Virus record (IMG/VR): IMGVR_UViG_3300045684_000050
Coordinates: 52,795 to 116,794 of that record
DNA length: 64,000 nt
DNA from: a virus
Strand: one strand, 5' to 3'
Every line of letters starts with the position of its first letter. The first letter of the stretch is position 1. Below, piece after piece: positions 39,430 through 64,000 of the stretch. The translations under genes and the position numbers were made by a program. The notes under the pieces were generated by a model. The model saw only the letters and a program-made list of their open reading frames with translations. It had not been told where the DNA came from and made no database searches.

Positions 39430-40998
39430 TTAGTACTGATCAGGATAGAAAATTCCAATATTATCAAAGTTAGGAATAAAAATACCCTTCATTTGCTCAT
39501 TGATAACCTTATAGGTATTACCTATATCTCCTCCTGAATTATATCGACCAGCTCCTACTTTACCAATCGGACCATTAGGAGTCCAGGAACCTACCAAGTA
39601 AGTCCTTTGTTCCATCATCTGATTAGTATAAAAGTAAACTGAGCTATTTCTTTCTGTTCCATCCATATTGTTGATGTTACCATACATCACCATAATCCAC
39701 CAAGCAGATGTTGGGAATCCTCTAAGCTGTTTATTTCCAGAGAGAATACCTGAATTCAACATAGAACTTATATGAAACTTAACTTTACCTACCGGATCCA
39801 GGTATATAGACCTATACTGTTTTTTGTTTATAGCTACACCTTTCCTCCTTGAATCAAATCCATCTTCATCACTATATTCATAGTGAGCTTCTACAACACC
39901 GCTTTGATCCAGCCTTCGCAGTTCTGGAGCTATAAGATGTCGAAATCCAGGAGTACCTGTAATCACATCAATAGTAGTATTTTTATTTGCTTCGAATCCG
40001 GACACATCTAGCTTCCTTGTAATCATATCAAGGATCCATTCAAGATTAAAATCATTTACAGAATAATGCTCACCACCACTTCCTCTAAAGAAATCCATAA
40101 GTGTAGGTCCCATTTGATAAGGATTGTGAGTCATTTGAGACATATGGCTGTTATGTCCTCTGGCAGGGGCAGAACCGGCAACAATATAGTTATCCATTTG
40201 CCTGTCAGCCTCAAAATTAAAATTCATCTCAATGTCAGACCAAGCAATTTGATTAGGCATTCCAGGAGGACAGGCACCTTCTGCAGAACTAACAAAGTAG
40301 TTACCTGCTTGCCATGCTTTATCAGAAACATTCATTTCCCAACCCATTCTTGTCATATCGAATTTGTAGACAGCAAATGCTTTACCGGCTGACATTTCAA
40401 TAGTACCTCTGCTGTAAGCTGCTTCTTCAAGAGGAGCACCATTAGGGATCAGCTCTGCCGCATCAAGATATGATACTGGAATAAAATCATCAACTGTTCC
40501 ATTGAACAGCTTCCATGAATATTTATATCCATCTACTCCATCAGGCATAGCTTCTGAAGTAGGCATAATTATGATCTCAGGATAATCCCTAAGAGCATAT
40601 ATGTTTTTTCTGGAAAGATTTCCAGAGTCTACTGTCATTTCCCACTCTGATCTATTGATACCAACTTCTTCAACAACATCATCAACATGTACTTTAATTA
40701 CTTCTAAAAAGAATTCCTGTTCCGGAAGTTCAATTTCAAATTCAATGAAATCTTTTGTCGTGGTATCATTCACCATTCTTTTCTTAAAGACTTCCATTAT
40801 ATCAGCACCTTCACCTATAAAGAAATTTTTTCTTCTTCCTAGTTGATTGGCAACAATTTTTAACCGTTCAGAATCTATCAAATTAGGATAAATTTCGTAC
40901 AAGGCTTTAGCATCAATTAAAGACCCGATTCCATGTTTCCCAACATTTATTTCTTTAGTCTTATACGACGCCAGTGAATTATTAGATCGTAAATTCAT
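39430..40998 (-). CDS. Major capsid protein candidate (522 aa)
   Basis: Length and position after TerL, portal and an acidic scaffold candidate are those of the major capsid protein. Features fitting an HK97-type capsid are the helical and charged N-terminus, a long central alpha/beta region and many aromatic and Gly turns (GFRHLIAPELRRLDQSG, GFPTSAWWIMVMYGN). No sequence motif by itself proves the fold. The gene is flanked by short AT-rich gaps, as for a highly expressed product. Confidence 0.6.
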   Translation of the reverse strand: MNLRSNNSLASYKTKEINVGKHGIGSLIDAKALYEIYPNLIDSERLKIVANQLGRRKNFFIGEGADIMEVFKKRMVNDTTTKDFIEFEIELPEQEFFLEVIKVHVDDVVEEVGINRSEWEMTVDSGNLSRKNIYALRDYPEIIIMPTSEAMPDGVDGYKYSWKLFNGTVDDFIPVSYLDAAELIPNGAPLEEAAYSRGTIEMSAGKAFAVYKFDMTRMGWEMNVSDKAWQAGNYFVSSAEGACPPGMPNQIAWSDIEMNFNFEADRQMDNYIVAGSAPARGHNSHMSQMTHNPYQMGPTLMDFFRGSGGEHYSVNDFNLEWILDMITRKLDVSGFEANKNTTIDVITGTPGFRHLIAPELRRLDQSGVVEAHYEYSDEDGFDSRRKGVAINKKQYRSIYLDPVGKVKFHISSMLNSGILSGNKQLRGFPTSAWWIMVMYGNINNMDGTERNSSVYFYTNQMMEQRTYLVGSWTPNGPIGKVGAGRYNSGGDIGNTYKVINEQMKGIFIPNFDNIGIFYPDQY

Positions 40999-41028
40999 TT
41001 TTATGTTTTTAAATTAAAAGCTTTTTAT

Positions 41029-42225
41029 TTAAAATTCTATCTTAAATTCTGCATCAGGCTTTTCACCAACTTTATTTTCTACAGTTGTAGCTTCAAAATT
41101 GGATAAAGGTTTTAAATCTTTATTCAGTTTATTAATGAACGATCCTCTTCTTTTATTTAATTGCCTTTCTGTCTCTGTCTCTTTTTTGATAATATCTTCA
41201 CCAAAATAAAAACTCATAGCTTGTTTAAGCTCATCTTCTACACTCCTTTCCATCAGTTTCTTTTGATATTTAGAAACTTTTTGAGTACGTCCATCCGGAA
41301 ATGTTACTGTCTCTGTCTTCTTAGTCATAGCTTCTCTAAACTCCAGGACTTTATCATATGGATATTTATTTCCTCCGACAATACCAGTTCTCAATAAGCT
41401 TTCAACTTGACTTCTACGTTCTTGGTTAAACTTAATTGCCTTTTTTTTGCGTTCTTCGATTGTTGTTTCAACATTCGTAACAACACCTGTAGCATATAGA
41501 TCAACCCACTCTTTTCTCTCTTTAATTAGATCCTCGACGTCTTCAGACTTTAAATCATTTTCAATGGCTCTTTTAGCATCTCTATCAGGCATTTTATTTA
41601 ACTTATAATACACCTGGAATAAATCTGTAGTGTCTTGAGTCGTTTCTTTTGTGAATTCAAAATCAGTAAATCTTTTTAATGCCAGAGCTTCAGTATATGA
41701 CTTCCTGTCTATTCCATATTCTATTCCGGTAGCCAGATAGGCATTTTGCTCTGTAAGTCCAAGATCTGCAATAACTTCTTCTTTCAATTGATTCCTCAAG
41801 TCACCATCTTCAGACAATCGCTTGTCAATAATCTTTTGCTCAAGTGATTGGTAAAAAGTATTAAGATCAGTAATTTCCTCCTTTTCAAATTTATGACCTG
41901 AAATTATCGATAAATCTTCTGCAATAGCAGAAAGAACAACTTCCTCAGTAAAACCTTCATCAGGTGTTTTAACATCTGTTTCTTGATTTTCTTCAATAGA
42001 AGCATCAACTTGTTGAGAATCAACCTGATCTTCAGTAGTTTTTACTTTAGGATCTGGTGGCGTCTCAATTTCTTGATTATCAGTAGTTTCGGGTAGTTTA
42101 TTTTCCTGTGTCGATTCTTTAATACGTCCAGGTTCAACACTAGGTATGGAGGTTTTTTCTTCACTAACAGGAATTGTTAAATCGAATAATTCTCCTGGAC
42201 TGCCAAATTTACTTGTAGCAAACAT
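41029..42225 (-). CDS. Acidic scaffold candidate (398 aa)
   Basis: The protein is very hydrophilic and rich in Glu, Lys, Asp and Thr. The N-terminal 100 residues are Pro/Thr/Glu-rich and probably disordered (ETPPDPKVKTTEDQVDSQQ); the rest is helical and charged. This composition and the position between portal and capsid genes are typical of assembly scaffolds. No protease motif was seen. Confidence 0.55.
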   Translation of the reverse strand: MFATSKFGSPGELFDLTIPVSEEKTSIPSVEPGRIKESTQENKLPETTDNQEIETPPDPKVKTTEDQVDSQQVDASIEENQETDVKTPDEGFTEEVVLSAIAEDLSIISGHKFEKEEITDLNTFYQSLEQKIIDKRLSEDGDLRNQLKEEVIADLGLTEQNAYLATGIEYGIDRKSYTEALALKRFTDFEFTKETTQDTTDLFQVYYKLNKMPDRDAKRAIENDLKSEDVEDLIKERKEWVDLYATGVVTNVETTIEERKKKAIKFNQERRSQVESLLRTGIVGGNKYPYDKVLEFREAMTKKTETVTFPDGRTQKVSKYQKKLMERSVEDELKQAMSFYFGEDIIKKETETERQLNKRRGSFINKLNKDLKPLSNFEATTVENKVGEKPDAEFKIEF

Positions 42226-42246
42226 AAAGCTTTTTTTTAATTATTG

Positions 42247-42254
42247 CAAAATTA
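42247..42254 (-). promoter_or_regulatory. Bacteroidota -7-like box before the scaffold and capsid genes
   Basis: The minus-strand octamer TAATTTTG matches TAnnTTTG, 21 bases before the scaffold ATG, in the 48-base gap after the portal gene. A matching -33 TTTG box was not found at the expected distance, so this is a weak candidate for a capsid-gene promoter. Confidence 0.25.
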
Positions 42255-42273
42255 GTTTCATTTTTTGATTCTA

Positions 42274-44790
42274 TTATCCCTTTGATTTTTGCTCTTTGAT
42301 GTCTAATTCTCTTTCTTTTAACTTCATTTCATCCTCGTGAATTTTCTCTTTTAGCTTCCTATCATCGGCATGTCTTTCTATATGATCAGCTACTCCATCT
42401 TCATTAATATCATTTGCATTTGCTAATGTCAAGCTATGAAGGAGTGCACTTTCTTTTCTGACTTCAACTTCTTTATCTTTTCTATCGTTTTGTCCTTTTT
42501 CTTTTATAAGAATTTCTTCGCGTCTTGATTGCTCTGCAGCCTGTTGTAATGCCTCAGCCCTGGCCAATTGTTGCTCCTGTCGCTTTTGGACCTGCATCTC
42601 AGATCTTTTTGCAACAGTTATAGCTTCATCCATGGTCTCTGCATTTATAGACTCAGCTAAATCAACAAGGTTCCCATTTGTGGCCGCATAATTTAATAAA
42701 TACTGTTTGTATAAAGATAGATTTTGCGTATCCTTAAATCCATCCTTACATTCATAATATATTGGAGATCCTATTATTTCATCAAAATTTAATTCATAAT
42801 GAGCTAGTTCATCATCAGAAAGATACGATTCTTTTACTTCATAATTATCTTGATAAGCAAAAAATGCAGATTTCATTAAGCCATTATATAAATCCTCTCT
42901 AAGTTGAGATCTCATACTTATAATCCGGTACTGTTGCCTTTCTACATTATTTATCTGGTTATTAAGATTTGCAGTATTAGTGTATTGGCCAGGACTATCA
43001 ACTTTTGCTTTATTAGTACCCATGCTTCCTTGCATCTTAGATTCTATATATTCAAGAACCTGTATCATCTCCATTTTACTACGTCTATCTCCTAGCTCTA
43101 ATGCTCTGACTCCACCATCACTTCCAGGATCTTTACCTAATGATGATTTTCTTCCAATAAGAACTTTAAACTTATGAAGTGTAGATAGTGTCTCAAATGG
43201 ATTTACCTTATCACTACTTATAGCATCTTCTCTTGCATACAATACCGTTCCTAAGTCATTAGCTATTCTGTCATAAAATGTATCAGCAAGATGATTATAT
43301 CTCAACTGAAATGGTTTTCCTTTTTCTAATGAAGATAAATTTTTAATATGACCCTGAAAGCTATTATACTCACATCCATATATTGACAATTTTGGTTTGC
43401 TTAAATCATGTGGATCTTTATATTGATACTCTTCTGGTCCAATATCAAAATATATGTCATGTACATTAGAGCACTTATATGTCTGAGGGATAGCTACAGA
43501 TTGTTCTTTTAAATCTCCATTAGACTTATCTAGTCTATAATGTTCACCTCTAATTACCTGAATTACTTTATCATTATGTACTCTTGTAATTTTCTTTGCT
43601 TTTGCCAACCATCTCCATGATCCAAATTTCATTTCGAATCCTAATTGTCTATTAAAATATGCATCGTTAAGCTTATCTAATACATTTTCTGCCCAATAAT
43701 GTCCTTGCCTACCATCTAACTGATAAGGAACAAATTCTTCAGTATCAGTAATCTGCCCGGTTCCTGGACGAACAGGTATTTTTATCATAAAATTTCTGTT
43801 AACAGCAGTATTAGTATGCCTATAGCTTACATCGCGACCAGTATTGTATTGATAGTCAGGAATAGGCGATAGCATAGCTTCAAGCTCTTTCCAATCTTTA
43901 TTTTTAAAGATATGATAATAATCAGTAATGATTTCTATTGGAGACAAATAGGTTGTTATACTTGCATGCAATCCATCTTGTATATAATCAGATAATGTTT
44001 TTAACTGATAATTACATGTCAATGGACTTACATTATCAATATAAATATTATTTAATCCATATCTTATTCGATATATTTCTTTTCCTGTAGCCTCACAATA
44101 ATGAGCTCCACTCTCCCATTTATATTTAAACTTATTCCTTTTAAGAACAATGTCCAGAAGTTTATTGAATAACTTTTCAGATAATGTTTCTGTCTTTTCT
44201 AGCATGGTCTTTACATCAGGATCTATATTTTGTTCTACCATATTATTGATAGTGCTTTGTCGATCTTGTAAAGCTTCTTCGTTAAGTTTTGTAGGATCTG
44301 TCGTCTTTGATTGAACGTCTACTTGTTGGGTAATTTGTTGAATTAAAGGCTGGATATATTGTTCTCTAAGAAAATCGATAACAACTTGCCGTTGTTTTGT
44401 CTTTTTATAAATTACTGCATGTTTGCTATAATCTATAATTGATCCTAAATTAGGTTGATTTATATAATCCGTAACTCTTCCTTGTGTTATTGTGTCGAGT
44501 AAAGGATAATGATTTATATGATCTCTACCGAAAGATACATTTCCTTCTTCCAGTTGAATTTCCATATTTAGACCTTGTGTTGGCACCTTCGGCCAGCGTC
44601 CAAAGTGTATATTGATATTTTCCAACATACGAGCAACATCTACTGACGACACAGTAGTTCCAGTAATTAAATCCATTGCAGCCCTAGCAATCTCATATCC
44701 TTTCCGCTTCTTTTCATTGTCAGAATATACCAACTTATCTAGTGCAATTGTAGATTTGTTATCTCTATAGTATTCAGTTCTCTTAGCCAT
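42274..44790 (-). CDS. Portal protein (838 aa)
   Basis: It lies seven bases downstream of TerL and is large, mainly helical and rich in Tyr, Asn and Gln, as are the roughly 800-aa portals of crAss-like phages. The last 120 residues are a charged helical tail with long heptad-like stretches (RQEQQLARAEALQQAAEQS, KLKEKIHEDEMKLKERELD), which could be the barrel. The identification rests on gene order, size and composition. Confidence 0.68.
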   Translation of the reverse strand: MAKRTEYYRDNKSTIALDKLVYSDNEKKRKGYEIARAAMDLITGTTVSSVDVARMLENINIHFGRWPKVPTQGLNMEIQLEEGNVSFGRDHINHYPLLDTITQGRVTDYINQPNLGSIIDYSKHAVIYKKTKQRQVVIDFLREQYIQPLIQQITQQVDVQSKTTDPTKLNEEALQDRQSTINNMVEQNIDPDVKTMLEKTETLSEKLFNKLLDIVLKRNKFKYKWESGAHYCEATGKEIYRIRYGLNNIYIDNVSPLTCNYQLKTLSDYIQDGLHASITTYLSPIEIITDYYHIFKNKDWKELEAMLSPIPDYQYNTGRDVSYRHTNTAVNRNFMIKIPVRPGTGQITDTEEFVPYQLDGRQGHYWAENVLDKLNDAYFNRQLGFEMKFGSWRWLAKAKKITRVHNDKVIQVIRGEHYRLDKSNGDLKEQSVAIPQTYKCSNVHDIYFDIGPEEYQYKDPHDLSKPKLSIYGCEYNSFQGHIKNLSSLEKGKPFQLRYNHLADTFYDRIANDLGTVLYAREDAISSDKVNPFETLSTLHKFKVLIGRKSSLGKDPGSDGGVRALELGDRRSKMEMIQVLEYIESKMQGSMGTNKAKVDSPGQYTNTANLNNQINNVERQQYRIISMRSQLREDLYNGLMKSAFFAYQDNYEVKESYLSDDELAHYELNFDEIIGSPIYYECKDGFKDTQNLSLYKQYLLNYAATNGNLVDLAESINAETMDEAITVAKRSEMQVQKRQEQQLARAEALQQAAEQSRREEILIKEKGQNDRKDKEVEVRKESALLHSLTLANANDINEDGVADHIERHADDRKLKEKIHEDEMKLKERELDIKEQKSKG

Positions 44791-44796
44791 TTTTTA

Positions 44797-47127
44797 TTAA
44801 TAATTAAATGCTCTATTTGTTTGAACTTTAGCTGACGCTAATGCTGCGATCAAGCTTTTACCTGCCGAGTTCCCTTGTGTTGGTTTTTGATTCCACCCTC
44901 CTTCTAATGTCCACTGTTTCAACTGTAAAGATATACCAAAAAAAGCAGACATGGGATCAAAGTTTCCATCTTTACTATAAAATATAATAGTATCAAGTAA
45001 TAATTCATCTCTTATTTCATCTACCATCAGTACGTCAGTAATACCTTCTTCACTTACAATTTGATCCACTAATGTATTTAAATATTCTGATGCCAATACT
45101 TCAAGTCCAGACTTTGTTCCTGGAGTAGTATACCAGCCTACATCATGCTTTGCAGTCACATTAGCTATTGTTCGATACGCTTGTAATGGGCATGGCATCA
45201 ATAAGTGTTCTAAATTCCATAATTCAGCATTAGAAATAACACTAGGAATATTAGTTTCCGGAAGCATATTACATTCATAAAACATAACAAGCTTCAACGC
45301 TTCTTTATCATTCATTTCTCTTTTAGTCATCCTGCATAATACCCTAGCTACTATATTCATCTTCATAGTCTTAGGAGGACCATATACTTTAAAAATATAA
45401 GCTATCGCCCAGGAATTACCTTCATCATATCTTACATTATCATATGTGCCAAAATATAACGATTTACCATCAAGAATAGGTGGTTCATAGATAGTAACTA
45501 TAGGCTTCTTTTTTATATCATCAGATGCTGATTCTAATTCTTCCAATGTTTTTATTATAGGCAAATCATTATCTTCACTAAAGAATACTTTCATTCTATT
45601 GCTATCTCCATCCCAATGTAATGTTCCTACTTTAATATTTTTTTCTTCATCTGGAATAGACTGTAATATAGATAATCTTTGTGATGCTCTTTCTACAGGC
45701 AAGTTTCCTGAAGAAGACTGCATAAATATATCCGCATGAGTCATAGGAAATGATGCTACATGCTTTATAGCTACAGATCCACCTTTATCTATTTCTTTCT
45801 TTCTTACCATCAGTTCATCCTGAAAGGCAGCTATATGGTCTAGGTTACCATTTTCATCTCTATGCCAATTCTGACGATATTGAGCAGGAACAAAACAGGC
45901 TATTGATCTACCTGTCATGTTATAGATATCAGGATATTCCACAAGATTCATAGATCTTGGATTATAAAAAGGCTTTCTTACATTTTTAACCTTTTTTAAC
46001 TGCCCACCGGTTCCTCCATATATACTTCTACCAAACTTAGTCTCTCTTATTTGAGCAGGACTATTTTCTTTATGCACACCTTCTACATTTTCCCACAGTC
46101 CTACCTCTTCATTCCAATAATAGTTTCCTGCATAACCTACTCCAGATGATATATTCTTACCGTAACTAACTCTACCCATTACTGATCCGGCACCTACACT
46201 ATGTTTTCCTCCTTCAGCTTTCACCCTGTTAGATATACCTTTATTTAAATCCTCAGATCCAGACTTAGGAAACCAAAAAACTCCATTATAAGATCTTAAA
46301 TCATCTCGATAGGCACCTAGCTCTTTAAGCATATCATAAGACCGGCCTAGTTTTCTGAAGTTTTCTTTTGTTGGTTTATCTTCCCATGCTCCGAATACAG
46401 AAATGAAGTTGGTATTCTTTTTATAATAATCTTGAAGATTAGTGGCATCATTAAAAACAAATCCTCTTTTTGCTAATGATATACCATGATATGATTTTCC
46501 TAAACGCCTAGTAGTAAGATAAAGGAAGTCTTTTTTCTCATTAAGATGCATGGCCTTGCCCATTGGCTTATCAAATGTTTTATACAGGTATTCTTTTGGT
46601 CCAATATATTTTTTCCACTTATTGTCTGGCGTTTTCAAGAAATCTTCATATTGTTTCAATACTATCTTTTCTCTCTGAAGCAATGGCTCCTTAGTCTCTA
46701 ACTTTCTTACTAGGTCATGAGATGTAAATTTTTTATCATCTTCGAATCCTGAAAATCCATCACTTTCTTCAAAACCATAAAACATATACCAATCGATATC
46801 TCTTAGTGTTGGATGTGCTAATACTCCAGATCTTGATACTTCATTTGGGTCAACACTAAGCTGCTGCATTTCTATCCAAAAAGCATTGACATAGAAGAAT
46901 AGATCATTAGTCATAAATCTCCATCCACCTTCACCAGTTTTCCTATTTCTATCTTCACCCCACATTCCCTGCATGCATTTCATAGCAAATTCTTCCCAAT
47001 ATTCAAAATATCGGACTTCTTCTAGGAATGGATTAATAACTGGATGATCCCTTTGAATAAAAGGTTCAATGTTTTGGAGCCTGAATGGTATCAGGTCTAC
47101 CGGTTTTAATTTAGAAATAGGTATCAT
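44797..47127 (-). CDS. Terminase large subunit (776 aa)
   Basis: The N-terminal ATPase has a Walker A-like motif FLYLTTRRLGKSYHG (about residues 201-215) and a Walker B/catalytic-Glu candidate in YYWNEEVGLW, followed by a Gly-rich coupling motif GGTGG. The C-terminal nuclease-like part has acidic residues in FGTYDNVRYDEGNSW, VMFYECN and GNFDPMSAFFG. It powers DNA packaging through the portal and cuts the concatemer. The overall look is that of TerL from crAss-like phages. It overlaps the upstream TerS candidate by four bases and precedes the portal gene. Confidence 0.82.
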   Translation of the reverse strand: MIPISKLKPVDLIPFRLQNIEPFIQRDHPVINPFLEEVRYFEYWEEFAMKCMQGMWGEDRNRKTGEGGWRFMTNDLFFYVNAFWIEMQQLSVDPNEVSRSGVLAHPTLRDIDWYMFYGFEESDGFSGFEDDKKFTSHDLVRKLETKEPLLQREKIVLKQYEDFLKTPDNKWKKYIGPKEYLYKTFDKPMGKAMHLNEKKDFLYLTTRRLGKSYHGISLAKRGFVFNDATNLQDYYKKNTNFISVFGAWEDKPTKENFRKLGRSYDMLKELGAYRDDLRSYNGVFWFPKSGSEDLNKGISNRVKAEGGKHSVGAGSVMGRVSYGKNISSGVGYAGNYYWNEEVGLWENVEGVHKENSPAQIRETKFGRSIYGGTGGQLKKVKNVRKPFYNPRSMNLVEYPDIYNMTGRSIACFVPAQYRQNWHRDENGNLDHIAAFQDELMVRKKEIDKGGSVAIKHVASFPMTHADIFMQSSSGNLPVERASQRLSILQSIPDEEKNIKVGTLHWDGDSNRMKVFFSEDNDLPIIKTLEELESASDDIKKKPIVTIYEPPILDGKSLYFGTYDNVRYDEGNSWAIAYIFKVYGPPKTMKMNIVARVLCRMTKREMNDKEALKLVMFYECNMLPETNIPSVISNAELWNLEHLLMPCPLQAYRTIANVTAKHDVGWYTTPGTKSGLEVLASEYLNTLVDQIVSEEGITDVLMVDEIRDELLLDTIIFYSKDGNFDPMSAFFGISLQLKQWTLEGGWNQKPTQGNSAGKSLIAALASAKVQTNRAFNY

Positions 47128-47651
47128 TCTATGATTCTAGCAGCCAATAATCCAGGTTGTTCTTTACCCTGTGTTCTTATTAATTTTATGTTATTAATAA
47201 CGTTAAAAGCTTTTGCTTTAAATTCATCTAGAGCTTGTTTCTCCTCAAGCTTGCTTTTAACATTTAGTTTTCCTTTTGAATCTGTATCTTGTAAACTTTG
47301 CTCAAATCGTTCTCTAAGCATAAGATAGTACAATACATCATCATTTATAAGAATTTTGTTTTTGTAGAACGCTGCCAGTTCATCATATTCCTCCCATGCA
47401 ATAGGGTGGAAGTTCTTTTGGATTACTCCCTTTTTTTCATAATAAGTCATTTTCTGGTCTATAAAAGAACGCAAGTCATATAACAAAAAGAAGCACCATA
47501 ATAACTTAGATGCTTCTTTTTGTCCTACTTCTCTAACCAGATTATTTACTTGAGGATACAACTTAACTTCAGGGTTCATTGTAATAAAGTCATCCTTCAT
47601 AGGATTTCCTTTTATGTCTAATGGATATTCCTCTACATTAGTTGATGCCAT
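47124..47651 (-). CDS. Terminase small subunit candidate (175 aa)
   Basis: The protein is mostly helical and charged and lies directly upstream of TerL with a four-base overlap, where TerS usually sits. No helix-turn-helix motif is evident. It could instead be another packaging accessory protein. Confidence 0.42.
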   Translation of the reverse strand: MASTNVEEYPLDIKGNPMKDDFITMNPEVKLYPQVNNLVREVGQKEASKLLWCFFLLYDLRSFIDQKMTYYEKKGVIQKNFHPIAWEEYDELAAFYKNKILINDDVLYYLMLRERFEQSLQDTDSKGKLNVKSKLEEKQALDEFKAKAFNVINNIKLIRTQGKEQPGLLAARIIE

Positions 47652-47659
47652 TTCTTACA

Positions 47660-48190
47660 TTAAGTTTTTTTACATAGTGAAACCCTATTTAGTATAGAGT
47701 TTTTTGTATAATTTAAAACTCTAACCGCTGCATCCCTAGAGTGATTAGAGCTAATAAAATCATCATTTACTAATTTATCAAAGTACAATTTTTTCATTTT
47801 AGTGCCTGACGGTGCCACTAATTGAAAAGGTATCTCATATTCGATAAGGAAATGTTCCCATGTCCTACATGATCCTTTTATGTCTCCTGCACCCTGTATA
47901 GCTTCTTCTTTAGCATAAGATAGCATTTTTCCTTTTCTCTTTCTAGCATCTTCTACTACACAAAATACTATATTGTTTCTGTTTAATTTTTCAATTGTTC
48001 TGAATGCTTTAGCAATTGTCACTGTTTTAACATGAACGAACTTATTGATATCACACGAAAATATAGCTAGACCTGTCTGCACTCCTGGATCTATACCTAT
48101 TGCGAAAGTCATACCTGAAAGATCCAATAAAGTATCTACGGGAATCTCCCGATGTTTCTTTAAGGCAATTTTTTCTAATAGGTCCTTCAT
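47660..48190 (-). CDS. RuvC-like Holliday-junction resolvase (176 aa)
   Basis: The RuvC/RNase H-fold acidic residues are in place: Asp34 in FAIGIDPGVQTGLAIF, Glu80-Asp81 in FCVVEDARKRKG, and His150 with Asp153 in SSNHSRDAAVRVL. Phage RuvC-like enzymes resolve branched replication products before packaging, which fits its place upstream of the terminase genes. The ATG has an AAAGGA sequence 8 bases upstream. It overlaps a short upstream ORF in another frame. Confidence 0.78.
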   Translation of the reverse strand: MKDLLEKIALKKHREIPVDTLLDLSGMTFAIGIDPGVQTGLAIFSCDINKFVHVKTVTIAKAFRTIEKLNRNNIVFCVVEDARKRKGKMLSYAKEEAIQGAGDIKGSCRTWEHFLIEYEIPFQLVAPSGTKMKKLYFDKLVNDDFISSNHSRDAAVRVLNYTKNSILNRVSLCKKT

Positions 48191-48284
48191 GTGGGCATTC
48201 CTTTAAGCAAACTTTAATATTCTTCAATCTTGGGTCCAGATATCCGGGAAATGGATTAATTATAACAATATGAGGTTGAGACAT
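48051..48284 (-). CDS. Short ORF overlapping the resolvase start (77 aa, doubtful)
   Basis: The first 31 codons lie before the resolvase start and look protein-like (MSQPHIVIINPFPGYLDPRL, then CLKECPHEG). The rest runs out of frame through the resolvase gene and is Arg/Ser-rich with little character. It may be a small gene with a long overlap, or an ORF that is real only at its 5' end. Confidence 0.3.
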   Translation of the reverse strand: MSQPHIVIINPFPGYLDPRLKNIKVCLKECPHEGPIRKNCLKETSGDSRRYFIGSFRYDFRNRYRSRSADRSSYIFV

Positions 48285-48348
48285 ATTACTGTTTTATTTT
48301 CCAAACACCTGCCCCAAGATCAAAGTTCAAATTGGTTTTTAGCCTGTT

Positions 48349-48528
48349 TTATCTTTTCATAATCCACATGCCAACAATAAATGGGATTGAAATTGGTGCA
48401 ATTATGGTTACAGCTACCATAGGAAACATACCAATTTCAAATTCCCAGTCATTGTCAGACATTAATTGGAATGATATTCCAAGAGCCACCAAATATGTTG
48501 CGGCACAATATGTGATCAGTCCAATCAC
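48349..48528 (-). CDS. Small two-helix membrane protein with a GTG start (59 aa)
   Basis: The GTG start overlaps the TGA of the 131-aa gene (GTGA), a classic coupling arrangement. An in-frame stop a few codons upstream forces this start. Two hydrophobic segments are separated by a short acidic loop: GLITYCAATYLVALGISF, SDNDWEFEIG, and FPMVAVTIIAPISIPFIVG. It ends KR. No function recognised. Confidence 0.6.
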   Translation of the reverse strand: MIGLITYCAATYLVALGISFQLMSDNDWEFEIGMFPMVAVTIIAPISIPFIVGMWIMKR

Positions 48529-48920
48529 TTGCCGTCTTTCGTAACATTTATAGTCATCCTAAGCAAGGTGTGAGCCTTAAAAGGATTTGGTACCAAAACG
48601 CCTCTTGCGTTTTTAATCTTCATTTCTTTACCATCATTGTAATAGACGGTAATATCTCTACTGAAAGTAATTTTTGGTTGTTCAGGAGTAAGTTGGCTAT
48701 TATCTGAATATAATACTCTTAGTTTTCCTGTAATAAATATAGGATCTGTAGTACACCAGCATCCGGCTTCTACTTTTTCTACAGTTTCTGCATCTTTACC
48801 TTCAAATAGATCAAAAAATACTGGAAGGTTTGTAGTTCCAGGCTTAATGTTTAATGTCACCTCTGTAGTCTTAAAGATATTGTGTTCATTAAGTTCAGGA
48901 TTTGCTGAGTTCTGATTCAT
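48525..48920 (-). CDS. Hypothetical beta-sandwich protein, DUF1573-like pattern (131 aa)
   Basis: It is beta-rich with EVTLNIKPG, then EAGCWCTTDPIFITGKLRV, a CxC-T/S-P pattern resembling DUF1573 proteins. No signal peptide is present. Its start lies inside the end of the 152-aa gene and its stop overlaps the GTG of the small membrane protein. The function is unknown and the family similarity is tentative. Confidence 0.45.
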   Translation of the reverse strand: MNQNSANPELNEHNIFKTTEVTLNIKPGTTNLPVFFDLFEGKDAETVEKVEAGCWCTTDPIFITGKLRVLYSDNSQLTPEQPKITFSRDITVYYNDGKEMKIKNARGVLVPNPFKAHTLLRMTINVTKDGK

Positions 48921-49353
48921 TTTTGTAAATAATTTTAATGGTTATAGGAGAGTTCTCCCTTAAAGTTTGATATTCTTTTTTATTAAAAATAATTGGCCCC
49001 CATCTATGTCGTGAGTCTTTTTCTGTAGGTGCCCAGGCTTTCGCTCTTGCATCACATCCACAAGTTTCACATTTTCCGGAATCTGAATTATAACACTCTT
49101 TTATACAATCTTCATCATAATGTCTTAGGATATACTGCTCTAGTATATGCAGTGGTACTATGAGCTTCAGGATATATCCTAGCAGAACACTCATCCATTT
49201 GAAAGGATTAAAGCATTGTGCGTAGGATATTCCGGTGAAAGAGCCTTTCTTTAATTTCCAGTTATAAAAAACTGTAATCAAAGAGATAATAATGTATGCT
49301 GATATTGCATAATATCCCAAACCAAATATATTAAGAGTCAAGTATAGTATCAT
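48895..49353 (-). CDS. Membrane protein with a cytoplasmic Cys cluster (152 aa)
   Basis: Two membrane segments (residues about 4-28 and 53-72) are followed by a tail with CIKECYNSDSGKCETCGCDA, enough cysteines for a zinc site. A WAPTEKDSRHRWGPI motif follows. No named family recognised. It overlaps both neighbours, so it is in the same operon. Confidence 0.48.
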   Translation of the reverse strand: MILYLTLNIFGLGYYAISAYIIISLITVFYNWKLKKGSFTGISYAQCFNPFKWMSVLLGYILKLIVPLHILEQYILRHYDEDCIKECYNSDSGKCETCGCDARAKAWAPTEKDSRHRWGPIIFNKKEYQTLRENSPITIKIIYKNESELSKS

Positions 49354-49934
49354 AATAAAACTTTTGGATCTTCAAATATAGCACATATATCAGGTTCTCC
49401 GATTCTTATAGTAAAATAATCTTCAAAATCTGGTTCATTTTTCATAGGGTCTATTATAAAGATATTTGAGCTATAATAATAGAAGAATTTATGCAGGAAT
49501 TTTGTTGATTGCTTAGACACCATTTCTGATGATGCGTTATTAAGTTTTTTTGCAGCAAATACTTCAAATACCGGATCTTTTTGAGTGATACATTTAGTGT
49601 CATGAAGTCTAATAACATCTCCTTCTTTAATTTCTATATCTTTCCATTTAAAACCTTCACCTGCTTTAATCACTACAGCGAATGGAAGTACTCTTGTTTT
49701 ATCAGCTTTTACATTTACAGCGTCTGTACTAAGGAGTGTGGTTTTGGTCCCTGTCATGTAAAAGCATACTCTCACCAAGATGTTGTTCGATGATAAAGTT
49801 AATCCCTTCAATATCTGTATTTCTCGCTCTGATAGAGATGGGCCAGACTTTAAGAGGTCCTGGAGAGAAGTTTTTTGCGGACAGTATTTCTCCTCTTGTT
49901 TCGTTTCCTTGGCTATAGTATTTTTTGAAGACAT
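49350..49934 (-). CDS. GroES/Cpn10-like co-chaperonin candidate
   Basis: The region NNILVRVCFYMTG (first strand), VLPFAVVIKAGEGFKWK, IEIKEGDVIRLHD and the late IGEPDICAIFED match the order of GroES elements: first strand, VxxVGxG, VxxGDxV and DIxAI. Phage co-chaperonins such as T4 gp31 help host GroEL fold capsid proteins. An insertion of about 50 residues before the last strand is unusual. I place the start at the ATG at 49934, giving about 205 bases of overlap with the 185-aa gene; a TTG start nearer the first strand is possible. Confidence 0.45.
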   Translation of the reverse strand: MSSKNTIAKETKQEEKYCPQKTSLQDLLKSGPSLSEREIQILKGLTLSSNNILVRVCFYMTGTKTTLLSTDAVNVKADKTRVLPFAVVIKAGEGFKWKDIEIKEGDVIRLHDTKCITQKDPVFEVFAAKKLNNASSEMVSKQSTKFLHKFFYYYSSNIFIIDPMKNEPDFEDYFTIRIGEPDICAIFEDPKVLL

Positions 49935-50286
49935 TCTTTTTAGCAAATTTTAAATAGTTTGAATAATATATTCTATGAACGGAATCATGAAGTCCTATAA
50001 ATATTTTAAAAAACTCATTAGGGCTCCAATCTTTCTTGATTCTATATTTATTAAATTGTTTATATGCTTTCTGAAGGAGTCCTTGAGACGGTTCCATTTT
50101 AACAAATCCTGGAAATTCAAAGGTAGGAAAAAATCCAGTAGTTGATATTTTCATTCCTAATATCCAAAACTGTTCAAAAGCTATTCTTATATCTTCTACT
50201 GTTCCATCCTTAAAATCTGGATCATCTTTCACTTCTTGGAAAGTTTTATCAAATATATTTGTCCATGATTTACCAGGTATCCACAT
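49729..50286 (-). CDS. Hypothetical protein (185 aa) overlapping the GroES-like gene
   Basis: No family recognised. The first 115 residues are helical and aromatic-rich (FEQFWILGMKISTTGFFPTF). The last 70 lie in the overlap with the GroES-like gene. In the overlap this frame has the more AT-rich third codon positions, as expected of genes here, so the long C-terminus is probably real. Confidence 0.48.
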   Translation of the reverse strand: MWIPGKSWTNIFDKTFQEVKDDPDFKDGTVEDIRIAFEQFWILGMKISTTGFFPTFEFPGFVKMEPSQGLLQKAYKQFNKYRIKKDWSPNEFFKIFIGLHDSVHRIYYSNYLKFAKKNVFKKYYSQGNETRGEILSAKNFSPGPLKVWPISIRARNTDIEGINFIIEQHLGESMLLHDRDQNHTP

Positions 50287-50290
50287 AATA

Positions 50291-50683
50291 TTACCATTTA
50301 CCGGTGAAGGTAACGCTAACTGTTATTTTTCTTGACTTTATCATGTTGATAATCACATCAGATACAACAATTGTATTTCTTTTAGGTGCATGTATCCATC
50401 CTTTTATTTTTAGTGACGATTTATTCACTGCCAATGTACTTTCATTCGTCACAAATTTCTCCTGGAGAATCCATTTTTTAAATTCCAAGTATTTGTCTTT
50501 GGTATTTATTTGGCCATTATCAATAATATAAAGGATAATTCCGGTAAGGCATAAGTTACCTTTTTTCCCAAGGTCACCTCCACTTGCAAACATATACCTC
50601 ATGTTCTCAATAAATAAGCTGACATACTCTTTTCTGTCATCTAATTCTATTGGTATGAGTTTAGTATCAATTACTTCTGCCAT
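50291..50683 (-). CDS. Hypothetical protein, first gene of the leftward operon (130 aa)
   Basis: No family recognised. It is a small alpha/beta protein with a helical middle (LEFKKWILQEKFV) and a C-terminal beta segment. It starts 79 bases from the divergent nuclease gene, so its promoter must lie in that shared gap. Confidence 0.45.
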   Translation of the reverse strand: MAEVIDTKLIPIELDDRKEYVSLFIENMRYMFASGGDLGKKGNLCLTGIILYIIDNGQINTKDKYLEFKKWILQEKFVTNESTLAVNKSSLKIKGWIHAPKRNTIVVSDVIINMIKSRKITVSVTFTGKW

Positions 50684-50686
50684 CCC

Positions 50687-50717
50687 TTTGATATTATTAT
50701 AAAATTAATTATTATTG
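50687..50717 (+). promoter_or_regulatory. Promoter candidate for the rightward genes
   Basis: TTTG, 19 bases, TATTATTG lies 45 bases upstream of the nuclease ATG. The -33 box is exact and the -7 box differs from TAnnTTTG at one position. On the other strand CTTG, 20 bases, TAGTATTG could serve the leftward operon. Confidence 0.4.
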
Positions 50718-50762
50718 CAATACTAAGAATTATCAACGACAATAACAAGAAATTCTTAAAAT

Positions 50763-51623
50763 ATGTATTCTAATGTTTTTTTTACAGATGCTACACATAG
50801 GTATTTTGATGATAGTGATAATAGCTATCAATCTGTATCTGCAATGATAGGAGGCAAACACGAGCCTTTTGATGAATCCATGAATATTTATTGTGCTATC
50901 AAGGAGCTATTCCCTAATAAGTTGACTAATGCTAAGAAGAAGTATGAATGGAATGATCCTAAGTTAGTTCCTTATATTATGGATGAATTAACTGTAGATG
51001 AAGTAAATAAAGTGATAAAGAAGTCTTCGGAATTTACTAATCAGTGGGATGAAATGGCAAACTTTGGGACATCAATACATGACAATTTTGAGCAGAAGGA
51101 TATATCCCGGAGGTATAAGATAAGTCCGTTTGATGGAGAGAAATATAAAGTCATTGCTCGTCCTTTTAAGGAAGGAAAGTATGATAACAAGTTAGTTTTG
51201 CCATTTGCCTTAGATGATCATCATTGCAATATATACATTCCTGAATCTGTAGTAGCTTATCATCCAAGTAAGAAAGCTGGACAAATAGATAAGCTATGGT
51301 TATACTGGACTGGCTCCAGACACATAGCTATTGTTGGAGACTACAAGACAGACAATAAAATATCTAAATATCCTATGTGGAAGAAAGAGGATGGAAAAGG
51401 AAGAAAGAAGCCGATGATGTTTTACAAGCCATTGGATTATTTCCCTGATTCCAAATACTGGTATTACACTTTAAAGATGAGTTGTTATGCCTATATGCTT
51501 GAGTATTTAGGTATTCCGGTTCATAGTATGTACTTGTGGCATTTTTATGATAAAGATAATATGAGTCAATATAATCATATACCTATTACTTATTATCGTA
51601 ACCACATAAAAAATTTATTTTGA
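50763..51623 (+). CDS. PD-(D/E)XK nuclease family protein (286 aa)
   Basis: The central region has the RecB/Cas4-like nuclease layout: KKAGQIDKLWLYW (Asp of motif II), then IAIVGDYKTDNKIS (DxK motif III), then YYTLKMSCYAYMLEYLG, which occupies the QxxxY position with Gln replaced. An upstream Glu/His-containing helix (FGTSIHDNFEQKD) is also typical. Such phage nucleases process DNA ends in recombination or replication. It is the first gene of the rightward block. Confidence 0.68.
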   Translation: MYSNVFFTDATHRYFDDSDNSYQSVSAMIGGKHEPFDESMNIYCAIKELFPNKLTNAKKKYEWNDPKLVPYIMDELTVDEVNKVIKKSSEFTNQWDEMANFGTSIHDNFEQKDISRRYKISPFDGEKYKVIARPFKEGKYDNKLVLPFALDDHHCNIYIPESVVAYHPSKKAGQIDKLWLYWTGSRHIAIVGDYKTDNKISKYPMWKKEDGKGRKKPMMFYKPLDYFPDSKYWYYTLKMSCYAYMLEYLGIPVHSMYLWHFYDKDNMSQYNHIPITYYRNHIKNLF

Positions 51624-51649
51624 AAGTATTGAATTTTAATTTATCTTTG
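51619..51649 (+). promoter_or_regulatory. Bacteroidota promoter with both boxes exact
   Basis: TTTG at 51619-51622 and TATCTTTG at 51642-51649 are 19 bases apart, an exact match to the TTTG/TAnnTTTG consensus and spacing. The start point would be near 51656, giving a leader of about 130 bases before the 488-aa gene. That leader begins at the left arm of a 12-bp inverted repeat. Confidence 0.6.
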
Positions 51650-51656
51650 GATTCAT

Positions 51657-51747
51657 GTTTCGAAGCTAGTATGATAGGAAAAAGTTAAAACGATAAGTAA
51701 AAAAAATGTATCACCTCGCTTTTTTCTATTACATGTAGCTTCGAAAC
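51657..51747. promoter_or_regulatory. 12-bp inverted repeat in the leader of the 488-aa gene
   Basis: The arms are GTTTCGAAGCTA (51657-51668) and TAGCTTCGAAAC (51736-51747), a perfect match across 67 bases. Each contains the palindrome TTCGAA. The left arm sits at the predicted transcription start, so the pair may be operator half-sites for a dimeric repressor or a long-range RNA stem. Confidence 0.5.
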
Positions 51748-51784
51748 TCTATGTACGTTTAAAAAAGGGTGGTACATTTTTTTT

Positions 51785-53251
51785 ATGAACAATAAAAGCA
51801 CACGTCTTTTCCACATTAATTCAGAACCTAGTACGGTCAAGTACTTAATAAACCAAAGTCCTAAGATGGCTTATGTTTATTATATGATGCAGTATCTTTC
51901 TGCAGGAAAGGGGTGGGTAGATAAGGATGCTGTGATAGAGGTAATTTATTCCAGGGAAGCCGGAAACATATCTAAGAGATCTATAGCTAAGTACATATCC
52001 CAAGTAGTATCTTCTCCCGTGGGTTTAGCATGTTGGTCCGGTTTAGTTAAGGGCCGTATCTCATTAACTAGCTGGAAGAATATAAAGTACCGGGATAAAG
52101 ACAATGCTCACAACGATATTTATTATTTCAATGGCAAGTATGCGAGGATATTTTGTATAAAGGCAGAAGCATTAGAGAGTTTCAAATCATTTAGATTTCA
52201 TATAATATCGGCATGTTTCAGGTATAAGCAGTTCAATAACAGGATCGCCCACAAGAAGAACATCAAGATTGCGAAGGATAGAAAGAAGCGATCATTAAGA
52301 AAGAAATCTGAGAAAATTTTATTTAGAGAGCAAGGCGGCAGACATTTTGCTACTGGACTTTCTGATATGAAATATAAATTAAGACTTAAACAAATACTTA
52401 AATTTTTAGGAAACAATAATCAGACATATCTGGTAAACGGTGCTAACAGCAATGAGCCAAGCCAAAGAGGTGGAAGCAATGATATATGGAGAGCCTTGAG
52501 CAGAGGGTTATGCATCAATATGACAAATAGATATAAAGATTTAGATTCTGATAAATTGGGTGTTTCTTTTAGACAAATGGAAAATGAGCTCAATATTTCT
52601 AGTTCTACATTACATCGATACCTTCATGGATCTGGCGTTGTTAGAGAAGAAATATTTTTCAGTTTACACCAGAAGTATACGATAGATGCTGAGATGTTAA
52701 AGAGGTTTGTTTTTTTAAATCCGGACGTAAAGTATAAGTTCAATAAAGAAACCAATAAGTTGGATTTCATTAGAACTTTACCTACAGTTTATACTGATAA
52801 AGAAGACGACCTGGTTATCATTAAGTTTAAGAGTCGTAAATCTGGATGGGATGGTGCTCAAGTTCGGTCAGTAAGACATAAGAGAGTATCGGCAGGGAAG
52901 ACTAGGAATAGTTCTACATCCAATAAACTAAAGTCATTTGATTCAACATTGATTTCTAACAAGAAGGTAAAGAAGCTTTTTGGTAGAAGTGTAAAGGTTA
53001 AGACAACTAAGGTCGCCAATTTTGAAACTGTAACTAAGAGTCACAGAAAGTCATTGAGAAACAATTCAGTAGTAACTGATATTTTATTAAATGACCTTGA
53101 GAATACTGAGGCAACTTATCCTTATCCTTTATTTACTGATTCAGTTTCAGATTGTATTTTGATTAATGAGGGTGTAAGCCTTGGCAGGCTCACACCTATT
53201 GTCCCAAAACTTTACATAACAGTTGATGCTATTTTGCATAGCCATATTTGA
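51785..53251 (+). CDS. DNA-binding protein, HTH-containing (488 aa)
   Basis: The protein is very basic, with KDRKKRSLRKKSEK near residue 170 and further Lys/Arg-rich segments in the last third. A helix-turn-helix is visible at about residues 259-280 (VSFRQMENELNISSSTLHRY). The N-terminal 120 residues may be a second winged domain. It could be a transcription regulator or a replication initiator. A promoter and inverted repeat precede it. No precise family recognised. Confidence 0.45.
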   Translation: MNNKSTRLFHINSEPSTVKYLINQSPKMAYVYYMMQYLSAGKGWVDKDAVIEVIYSREAGNISKRSIAKYISQVVSSPVGLACWSGLVKGRISLTSWKNIKYRDKDNAHNDIYYFNGKYARIFCIKAEALESFKSFRFHIISACFRYKQFNNRIAHKKNIKIAKDRKKRSLRKKSEKILFREQGGRHFATGLSDMKYKLRLKQILKFLGNNNQTYLVNGANSNEPSQRGGSNDIWRALSRGLCINMTNRYKDLDSDKLGVSFRQMENELNISSSTLHRYLHGSGVVREEIFFSLHQKYTIDAEMLKRFVFLNPDVKYKFNKETNKLDFIRTLPTVYTDKEDDLVIIKFKSRKSGWDGAQVRSVRHKRVSAGKTRNSSTSNKLKSFDSTLISNKKVKKLFGRSVKVKTTKVANFETVTKSHRKSLRNNSVVTDILLNDLENTEATYPYPLFTDSVSDCILINEGVSLGRLTPIVPKLYITVDAILHSHI

Positions 53252-60882: not shown

Positions 60883-61603
60883 GCCCCTAACACTCTCCTA
60901 CCTCCACATTCCAATACTTTATAAATACTCCCCGAAATATATACATCACCCCGTAATCAACATATATCAATATGTTCACACTATCCTTACCATTACTGGG
61001 ATCTACATAAAATACTACACTATCATCCTCCATTGTGTGAAGCCACACCGGCTATTTAGTTCAGGACCAAATATACTTCCATTTTTTTTACTACCCTAAA
61101 TAACCACCCCCCACTTATCCTACAAAATAACCCCCCCCCCTCCTACTCAAAAACTAACTTTCTTACTAGCTAACATGTTTAATTTTTTAAAATAATTTAT
61201 TACCTATACCCATGCCCAAAACTAAACTTTTCGACTACATACCAAAATATTAATATTGTATAGGGGCTGTCGATTTCGGTTTTTTGGTGCCCCGTCATGA
61301 ATATATAGGTATATACTTTTTGTGGAATAAAAGAGATAGGAAAGTATATACAGGTAGATGTTAGAGTTTAGATACATACCTATATGTTAAACATGTATTT
61401 ATATAGTGATGTGAATGATTGAACATGTAGGCATATATTGAAAGTGAAAAATATATGTAGATCTATATTAGTAATAAGCCTTATAAACCTGATCCAGATA
61501 CGCAAGTTGTTAAAAATATATTTTATTTATGTGTCTAGATATTAGGTTTAATAGATAATTAAAGTTATCTTTAAGTTATTATTTAATTAAACAATAACAA
61601 CTT
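60883..61603. other. Gene-free tract with C-runs and motif repeats, origin-like
   Basis: About 720 bases without a convincing gene. The left part (to about 61150) has strong C over G bias on the plus strand, a C6 run at 61107 and a C10 run at 61131. From about 61260 the strand becomes G-richer than C. Near 61299-61440 it carries TATATAGGTATATA and ACATACCTATATGTT motifs also present in the end array. A GGGGC/GCCCC pair flanks a 20-base loop near 61265. Skew change, AT-rich flank and iteron-like motifs are consistent with a replication or partition site, without proof. Confidence 0.4.
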
Positions 61604-62446
61604 ATGAAAAATTTAAATTTATTTGACGTAGTGAAAATCGCCCAATTACCAACAGTAAAAGATATTAATGGTATATCATTAATAGACGACGAAAAAACTT
61701 TTTGCACTTACAGGACTGATACAGGTGCAAAACTTGGAACAGTTGGTCAGTCTTATAAGGTGATGCAAAACAGCGGAATTTATAACATTATGCAACAAGC
61801 TTGCGACATTGCAAAAATTGACCCTGAAGGCATCAAATTTCTACCTTTACAAGGAGGTCAAAAAGTGAGTTTTCAGGTACAGTTAAAGGACATTAAGGTA
61901 TCAGGATATGACATGGTAAACATGTATTATTCATTCCTTACTTCTCACGATGGAAGTACAGGCACTGCAACTGATCTAATTAATTTTCGTGTATATTGTT
62001 CCAATACATGGAGACAGGCAATGAAAATGATGAAGAAGTATAAACACACCGTTAACGGTAACCATGCAGCCATTGAGCAAGCTAACCACATTTTAGAAGC
62101 CATTGAAGAATCCATGATGCTACAAGAATTGTATACATCAATGCATGAAACGCCTTTCAGCAAGTCAGATGCAAAAGAATTTTGCTTTGAACTTTTAGGA
62201 TTCGACGATGAAGCAATTGAAAAGAGTGCACGCAAATTTGGTAAATATGATCGTTTTATGGAAGGTCTTGGACACGAATTAAAAGAAGTAGGCGAGACTG
62301 TATGGGGAGCATATAACGGTATAACGTACACGACAAACCACCTAATTAACAGGAAGGACAAACAAATGGATTATGTTCTTTTAAAGGAAGGTCACACTCT
62401 CACGAAGAAAGCTTTAAAAATCTTAGTTCCTGAATACGCGAATTAA
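61604..62446 (+). CDS. DUF932 phage/plasmid-like protein (280 aa)
   Basis: The core signature is present: GAKLGTVGQSYKVMQN, GGQKVSFQVQL, FLTSHDGSTGTATD, and the C-terminal RFMEGLGHELKEVGETVWGA. DUF932 proteins are frequent on phages and plasmids; their activity is not established, though they often lie near replication or restriction genes. The leader has the AACAATAACAAC element. Confidence 0.72.
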   Translation: MKNLNLFDVVKIAQLPTVKDINGISLIDDEKTFCTYRTDTGAKLGTVGQSYKVMQNSGIYNIMQQACDIAKIDPEGIKFLPLQGGQKVSFQVQLKDIKVSGYDMVNMYYSFLTSHDGSTGTATDLINFRVYCSNTWRQAMKMMKKYKHTVNGNHAAIEQANHILEAIEESMMLQELYTSMHETPFSKSDAKEFCFELLGFDDEAIEKSARKFGKYDRFMEGLGHELKEVGETVWGAYNGITYTTNHLINRKDKQMDYVLLKEGHTLTKKALKILVPEYAN

Positions 62447-62449
62447 TAC

Positions 62450-62508
62450 GGTTGACTGATGATATTTTAATAATCGAAAGGTAGGCAATAATTGCCTACC
62501 TTTCAACC
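62450..62508 (+). repeat. Structured intergenic repeat, copy 1
   Basis: AAAGGTAGGCAAT and ATTGCCTACCTTT pair perfectly (62477-62503), and GGTTG/CAACC can form an outer stem (62450-62454 with 62504-62508). The spacer CTGATGATATTTTAATAAT is conserved in copy 2. Both sides of both stems change together between copies. Confidence 0.75.
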
Positions 62509-62555
62509 ATAAAAAAGGTAAGTATTTATTAATTAACTAAAAAAACAATAACAAC

Positions 62556-62927
62556 ATGTTAGAACAAATTTACATCAGAAGTGATCAAGTGGAATATGTT
62601 ACAGGGAAAACATATTGCCCCAATGGATTGTATATTGATGGCTCTTTAATCCACAACAATCATTCATTGCCTGAAACATTTGACGAAATGCAAGAAGAAA
62701 TATTCCGAATGTTCATTATTTATGAACCTTGCGGGAATAGTTCTATTGGTCATGGTATCTCAGCACCTTCTCCAGAAGAAGCAATAGAAGAACTTTGTGA
62801 AATTCTCATGAATGAATACGATAGCCATGAGGAAATTCATTTATTTGCCATTAAAGAGATCATAACAACGACGCAAACAAGGACACAGCACTTGAGGAAG
62901 TTATCTGAATTATATAACCACATATAG
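62556..62927 (+). CDS. Hypothetical protein (123 aa)
   Basis: No family recognised. Starts after AACAATAACAAC. Mixed alpha/beta with an acidic helical second half (PSPEEAIEELCEILMNEYD) and a Thr/Arg-rich end. Bracketed by the two structured repeats. Confidence 0.5.
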   Translation: MLEQIYIRSDQVEYVTGKTYCPNGLYIDGSLIHNNHSLPETFDEMQEEIFRMFIIYEPCGNSSIGHGISAPSPEEAIEELCEILMNEYDSHEEIHLFAIKEIITTTQTRTQHLRKLSELYNHI

Positions 62928-62985
62928 GTTAACTGATGATATTTTAATAATCGATAGGTAGGCAATTATTGCCTACCTATTAACC
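62927..62985 (+). repeat. Structured intergenic repeat, copy 2
   Basis: ATAGGTAGGCAAT and ATTGCCTACCTAT pair perfectly (62954-62980). The outer stem is GGTTA/TAACC. Compared with copy 1, AAA/TTT became ATA/TAT and GGTTG/CAACC became GGTTA/TAACC, all compensated. Confidence 0.75.
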
Positions 62986-63005
62986 ATAAAAACAATAACA
63001 ACACC

Positions 63006-63179
63006 ATGAAAAACATTTTAATTTACACCTTTGCCACTATTGCATTTTTTGCATCTATGTATTTACTTGCATTATCTTTGCTCGAGAACAATTCCAAATA
63101 CTTTGCATCTGGTTTCATGTTCTTGATATTATGCTCTATTATCATTTTATTTATTGACTATAAAACCACATACAAATAA
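63006..63179 (+). CDS. Small two-helix membrane protein (57 aa)
   Basis: Two hydrophobic segments (ILIYTFATIAFFASMYLLAL and FASGFMFLILCSIIILFI) with a short polar link. Starts four bases after the AACAATAACAAC leader. No family recognised. Confidence 0.55.
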   Translation: MKNILIYTFATIAFFASMYLLALSLLENNSKYFASGFMFLILCSIIILFIDYKTTYK

Positions 63180-63250
63180 CCATAAAAATCGGCTCCAGAA
63201 CTTTTATACTCCGATAGGACTGATTATGTAATCATATAAACACATAAACC

Positions 63251-63674: not shown

Positions 63675-63709
63675 ATAGGCCATTATTAAATTAATGGCCT
63701 ATTTTTTTT
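63675..63709 (+). terminator. Rho-independent terminator
   Basis: ATAGGCCATTA (63675-63685) pairs with TAATGGCCTAT (63692-63702), followed by T's to 63709. It ends the operon that starts with the DUF932 gene. Confidence 0.7.
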
Positions 63710-63722
63710 ATCCATTGCCAGG

Positions 63723-64000
63723 TGAATATATACCTATATGTTCATTTATACAGGTACATATATTCATAGATGACTGAATATGTAACCAGATATATTCATA
63801 GATGGCTGAATATGTAACCAGATATATTCATAGATGGCTGAATATATACCTATATGTTCATTTATACAGGTACATATATTCATAGATGACTGAATATGTA
63901 ACCAGATATATTCATAGATGACTGAATATGTAACCAGATATATTCATAGATGACTGAATATGTAACCAGATATATTCATAGATGACTGAATATGTAACCA
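63723..64000. repeat. Iteron-like tandem array of 52- and 32-base units, truncated by the window edge
   Basis: Order: 52-base unit (63723-63774), two 32-base units (to 63838), 52-base unit (63839-63890), three 32-base units (to 63986), then the first 14 bases of another. All begin TGAATAT and full units end TATTCATAGATGAC or GGC. TATTCA and TGAATA form an inverted repeat across each junction. The 52-base unit also holds GAATATATACCT and its near-complement AGGTACATATATTC. There are no unique spacers. Confidence 0.85.

Follow-up and report, generated by a model that had tools for sequence, protein, structure and literature searches.

Phage T7 is the textbook case of RNase III-type mRNA processing between genes. 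In the gal operon, an 8-bp hairpin blocks exoribonuclease and sets the stable 3′ end of the mRNA (PMC11925234). Early-region phage terminators without poly-U tails have been reported, as indicated by a title cited in PMC8355165. Hammerhead ribozymes are reported to flank single prophage genes, and they include a natural U10.1-U11.1 mismatch and an example with a one-pair stem II (PMC3088659).

The duplicated hairpin element described here lies in a 64,000-nt stretch of viral DNA (the window), which comprises bases 52,795-116,794 of a 116,794-bp virus record; coordinates refer to the window unless assigned to the record. The terminase and portal proteins match PHROG head-and-packaging families, and the best TerL relative is that of the Crassvirales phage Cellulophaga phi14:2, with 27% identity. 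The phage is crAss-like, poorly known, and an orphan in the collections searched.

Architecture and divergence of the two copies

The repeat unit is 66 nt long and ends in ATAAAAA. Copy 1 (62450-62515, + strand) and copy 2 (62927-62992, + strand) are 92% identical and flank a 123-aa gene. The original prediction had placed the hairpin copies correctly, at 62450-62508 and 62927-62985, but as a 59-base repeat it stopped short of the tail that is also common to both. Copy 1 consists of an outer stem (62450-62454/62504-62508), a bulge (62455-62476), a hairpin (62477-62503), and the ATAAAAA tail. In both copies the outer stem is GGTTR/YAACC, 5 bp long as predicted. The inner hairpin, AWAGGTAGGCAA/TTGCCTACCTWT, has 12 bp and a 3-nt loop, rather than the 13-bp perfect stem first proposed, in which the 13th pair would reduce the loop to 1 nt. 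Copy 1 starts 3 nt past the stop codon of a DUF932 gene, and the first G of copy 2 is the final base of the TAG stop codon of the 123-aa gene. On either strand, the folding energies of both copies are far lower than those of dinucleotide shuffles (z -5.0 to -7.2). Positions 6-28, which include the 22-nt bulge, are identical in the two copies; this unchanged segment of 23 nt is longer than the one originally quoted. The 21-nt bulge sequence was found twice against 0.01 matches expected, and chance does not account for the repeat.

The copies differ at five positions, comprising two compensated pairs and loop position 41. Pair 5-55 of the outer stem is G-C in copy 1 and A-U in copy 2, and pair 29-53 of the inner hairpin is A-U in copy 1 and U-A in copy 2. 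It is therefore true, as originally claimed, that every stem difference is compensated, yet this rests on two pairs in two copies. Under a null of five random substitutions, two compensated pairs with no broken pair arose in a fraction of 0.000155 of trials. In a separate test of registers, full pairing was obtained in the proposed one only. A shuffle control (105/500) has little power with two sequences. The two compensated pairs are consistent with selection on pairing, or with template-switch correction of a quasi-palindrome, and the two are not separated because no further homologues were present in the collections searched.

Searches of the 116.8-kb record, of IMG/VR, and of 49 records from relatives or with a DUF932 gene detected no third copy. 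Exact and loose patterns of the element returned nothing with both stems in IMG/VR, and among the matches listed for the loose pattern in genome contigs none combined the two stems with a genuine hairpin. BLASTN against phages and plasmids detected no further member of the element; the 17-nt hairpin core is present in five viral contigs, in unrelated surroundings. In 49 other phage records, a covariance model built from the two copies matched nothing beyond weak hairpins that probably arose by chance, the best outside match being a hairpin after a gene, with neither the outer stem nor the core. Rfam matches were sub-threshold microRNA, sRNA, or snoRNA noise. Searches for relatives with single proteins (DUF932, the 123-aa protein, and TerL) found none, and an alignment search found distant ones only. 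As far as these sequences go, conservation is that of a within-genome duplication, seen there and not across genomes. The copies may have been duplicated recently, and their identity would then say little. Of the proposal that this is a conserved RNA element, the structured intercistronic element is well supported, and conservation across genomes is not, since no homologues were found in the collections searched.

An intercistronic hairpin in a putative operon

The DUF932 gene (61604-62446, + strand; 280 aa; Pfam PF06067, E=7.8e-22; phrog_1221, E=1.4e-27) would be the first gene of an operon that contains both copies. Upstream of it lies a putative promoter element, TATCTTTA (61566-61573, + strand), which has one mismatch to the Bacteroidetes -7 consensus TAnnTTTG (PMC7366714). 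The 123-aa gene (62556-62927, + strand) is an orphan, with no Pfam or PHROG match, none in phages by TBLASTN, and none in IMG/VR. It also has no paralogue in the record, and duplication of the hairpin together with a whole gene is thus not indicated. Downstream is a 57-aa ORF (63006-63179, + strand) with no PHROG match. No promoter-like TAnnTTTR motif occurs in the interval from either copy to the following gene, and an intrinsic terminator with an 11-bp stem followed by a T-run (63675-63709, + strand) would close the operon. Because a promoter-like site stands upstream of DUF932, none follows the copies, and the T-run terminator comes last, we infer that DUF932 through the last gene form one operon.

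Four leader regions of the record, at 190-306, 3160-3274, and 6861-6955 of L003 and at window positions 61480-61603, the last being upstream of DUF932, have a common block, which closes with GATAATTAWAGTTATCTTTA or a near variant of it. The block stands before the translation leader AACAATAACAA, and ATATAAACTTTAACA is also present in three of the four. These regions are probably promoters of this phage.

A leader, AACAATAACAAC, precedes the gene after each copy. In its longer form, AAACAATAACAAC, it is found before the 123-aa gene (62543-62555, + strand) and before the 57-aa ORF (62990-63002, + strand), where it is continuous with the tail of copy 2. By inspection, the leader CAATAACAAC is also common to both copies once a 29-nt stretch of the copy 1 spacer is skipped. 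The duplicated unit looks like a whole intercistronic module of hairpin, tail, and leader. A third tail, AACCATAAAAA, occurs without a hairpin after the 57-aa ORF (63178-63188, + strand).

The element is most likely of an ordinary kind, though well formed. Our preferred explanation, to which we give an even chance, is an intercistronic hairpin for protection of mRNA 3′ ends or for segmentation of the message, duplicated once within the operon. A single message would start at the putative promoter that precedes DUF932 and finish at the T-run terminator (63675). In each module, a stop codon is followed by the hairpin, the ATAAAAA tail, the AACAATAACAAC leader, and the start codon of the next gene. 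The 12-bp hairpin right after each stop codon would block 3′ exonucleases once the RNA had been cut or had ended downstream, and the polycistronic RNA would thereby be divided into gene-length pieces of differing stability. What the sequence shows is the capacity to fold, the location after stop codons, the duplication, and the lack of a T-run; a shared transcript and the role in protection or segmentation are inferred. Each copy lies between co-directional genes and near the upstream stop codon, as hairpins of the stabilising and processing class do. The element is like the galE 3′ hairpin of the gal operon (PMC11925234) in that a short perfect stem follows a gene within an operon and a U-run is not needed. 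Unlike the galE hairpin, the phage element is duplicated and has an identical 22-nt bulge and an outer helix. The identical bulge and the covarying outer stem exceed the needs of a plain protective hairpin and count against that reading. Should the stabilising or segmenting role hold, the element would join the known intercistronic mRNA hairpins, and its modest interest would lie in the fact that control at the RNA level is uncharted in this deep branch of crAss-like phages.

The main rival to mRNA protection or segmentation, which we nonetheless consider unlikely, is a U-run-independent terminator, partial or complete, by which the hairpins would set the expression ratio of successive genes. 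Strong hairpins directly after stop codons are what such terminators would present, and both copies form the stable G+C-containing hairpin expected of a terminator. The hairpins are followed by CAACCATAAAAA or TTAACCATAAAAA, and this A-rich 3′ flank fits protection and weak termination alike. Against termination, a T-run is missing after both copies on either strand, as had been claimed, and the genes downstream lack a promoter-like site of their own. A terminator scan of the phage listed neither copy. The same phage also has hairpins with T-runs elsewhere, at record positions 6269, 8341, and 18296 and at window position 63675. The two copies are like the phiC31 early-region terminators, so far as the title cited in PMC8355165 describes them, in having a hairpin after a stop codon and no U-run. 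They differ in that this phage also has ordinary T-run terminators and in that the next genes lack promoter-like sites. The original prediction that the element is not just a terminator thus stands in so far as the copies are not classical U-run terminators and differ from the phage's own, e.g., that at 63675-63709. It is not established further, given the report by title of phage terminators without poly-U.

In favour of the intercistronic mRNA reading, hairpins in this phage are concentrated between genes. Although intergenic DNA makes up 8.4% of the record, 19 of its 30 strongest hairpins are intergenic; some have T-runs and are terminators, and others, like both copies, have none. One strong intergenic hairpin without a T-run, TAACTAAAATTGCCTTCTTTGTAAGGTAATTTTAGTTA (record 3753-3790), lies between two genes and before a AACAATAACAA leader. 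At DUF932 loci of other phages, a hairpin of at least 8 bp was present within 80 nt 3′ of the gene in 10 of 72 cases, compared with 0.62 expected from shuffles. Several of these hairpins lack a T-run, and their sequences are unrelated to the 66-nt element, and so it is the position of a hairpin after DUF932 that recurs and not the element.

Resemblance to hammerhead ribozymes

The copies might instead be type I hammerhead-like self-cleaving ribozymes, or decayed descendants of them, that cut the message both before and after the 123-aa gene, a reading that we judge quite improbable. Copy 1 matches every conserved core position in exact register (62456-62502, + strand). Stem I is GGTTGA/TCAACC, C3-A9 is CTGATGA (62456-62462), a weak stem II would occupy 62463-62475, and G12-A13-A14-A15.1 is GAAA (62476-62479). 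These are followed by U16.1 at 62501 and by H17, a U at 62502, 3′ of which cleavage would occur. With the stems fixed, shuffles of the upstream segment recreate the core at 0.4-1.4 per 100,000. A by-eye correction for the roughly 20 intergenic hairpins, both strands, and several classes of ribozyme puts the probability of a match like this at roughly 0.005 instead of 1e-5, a figure that is our own estimate. Hammerheads that flank single genes have been reported in bacterial and phage genomes, as has a stem II that starts with a mismatch (PMC3088659).

The remainder of the fold is much less like a hammerhead. Positions 10.1-11.1 are U-C in both copies and are not paired, and stem II comprises at most three A-U pairs, with a pairing probability of 0.002 for the first. 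The C3-U-G-A-N-G-A9 motif directly follows stem I in both copies (62456-62462 and 62933-62939), and copy 1 also has G12-A13-A14 before A15.1-U16.1 and an H17 that is not G (GAAA, U, U). In copy 2 this second part fails: its GATA contains A14U, a core change rejected by the criteria of PMC3088659, although the A at its position 17 is allowed. The change at 14-17 is compensated as a base pair, which is not predicted by a hammerhead and supports a plain extended hairpin, and the competing extended hairpin fold is more stable. RF00163 and RF02276 gave no match on the record, and permissive Rfam scans of short stretches with E up to 10 gave no hammerhead. In its exact core register in copy 1, its type I topology, and its two elements flanking one gene, the locus is like the prophage hammerheads of PMC3088659. 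It is unlike them in its mispaired 10.1-11.1, its near lack of stem II, the A14U of copy 2, and the silence of the Rfam models. The acceptance criteria of that study would reject both copies.

A bolder form of the ribozyme hypothesis, in which two divergent self-cleaving RNAs of the hammerhead type, with stem II nearly absent, would excise a single gene from a crAss-like phage operon, is highly improbable; it would have the core A14U of copy 2 coupled to its U17A change. Should copy 1 cleave itself, it would represent a hammerhead almost devoid of stem II, on which the extent of core drift could be tested. We do not class the element as a hammerhead; the resemblance is intriguing and unproven.

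In two viral contigs (L316:6095-6150 and L305:12395-12450), CTGATGAGCGCC...GAAAGG adjoins a hairpin of 12-13 bp, and a hammerhead-like core and possible stem II line up. These sites are most likely strong terminator-type hairpins beside a chance CTGATGA.

Remaining alternatives and other features of the record

A site for a double-strand-specific or phage endonuclease of the RNase III type would yield mRNAs of gene length that carry a hairpin at the 5′ or 3′ end. The intercistronic location in the putative operon and the 12-bp stem with its outer helix are compatible with such a site, but for canonical cleavage by RNase III a lone stem of 12 bp is short, and we regard such a site as very unlikely.

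One template switch within a quasi-palindrome can create the inner double change in a single event. The element could then be a passive DNA-level repeat, i.e., a recent quasi-palindrome duplication changed by template switching and with no selected RNA function, for which we see only a slim chance. There are just two copies, whose 92% identity extends across all 66 nt, tail included, with no homologue elsewhere in the collections searched, and the A29/T53 change is the expected product of template-switch correction. However, the 22-nt bulge on one side separates the outer change (5/55) from the hairpin, which simple template switching explains poorly, and the copies, each behind a stop codon, are not randomly placed.

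Three other identities were discarded. Integron attC sites have ends in the AAC...GTT arrangement, of which the GGTT...AACC ends found here are the reverse. An N4-type hairpin promoter does not fit, as the long ORFs contain no DxDGD-type RNA polymerase motif and a host-type -7 motif is present elsewhere, and a mimic of a CRISPR repeat, with GTTG...CAAC ends, does not fit in length or structure.

A very long minus-strand ORF of ~4,290 codons (record 40051-52920) enters the window at its left end (1-126). A second short-repeat array, GTATATAAAGGTATTTGTTGAGTATGTAGG and variants, occupies a probably non-coding stretch at 2475-3000 of L003. The first array, a 32-nt tandem repeat (ATATATTCATAGATGACTGAATATGTAACCAG), extends over window positions 63677-64000, up to the final base of the record, and resumes at record positions 1-190 (L003). 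Its presence at both ends suggests that the genome is circular or that the assembly was cut within the array.
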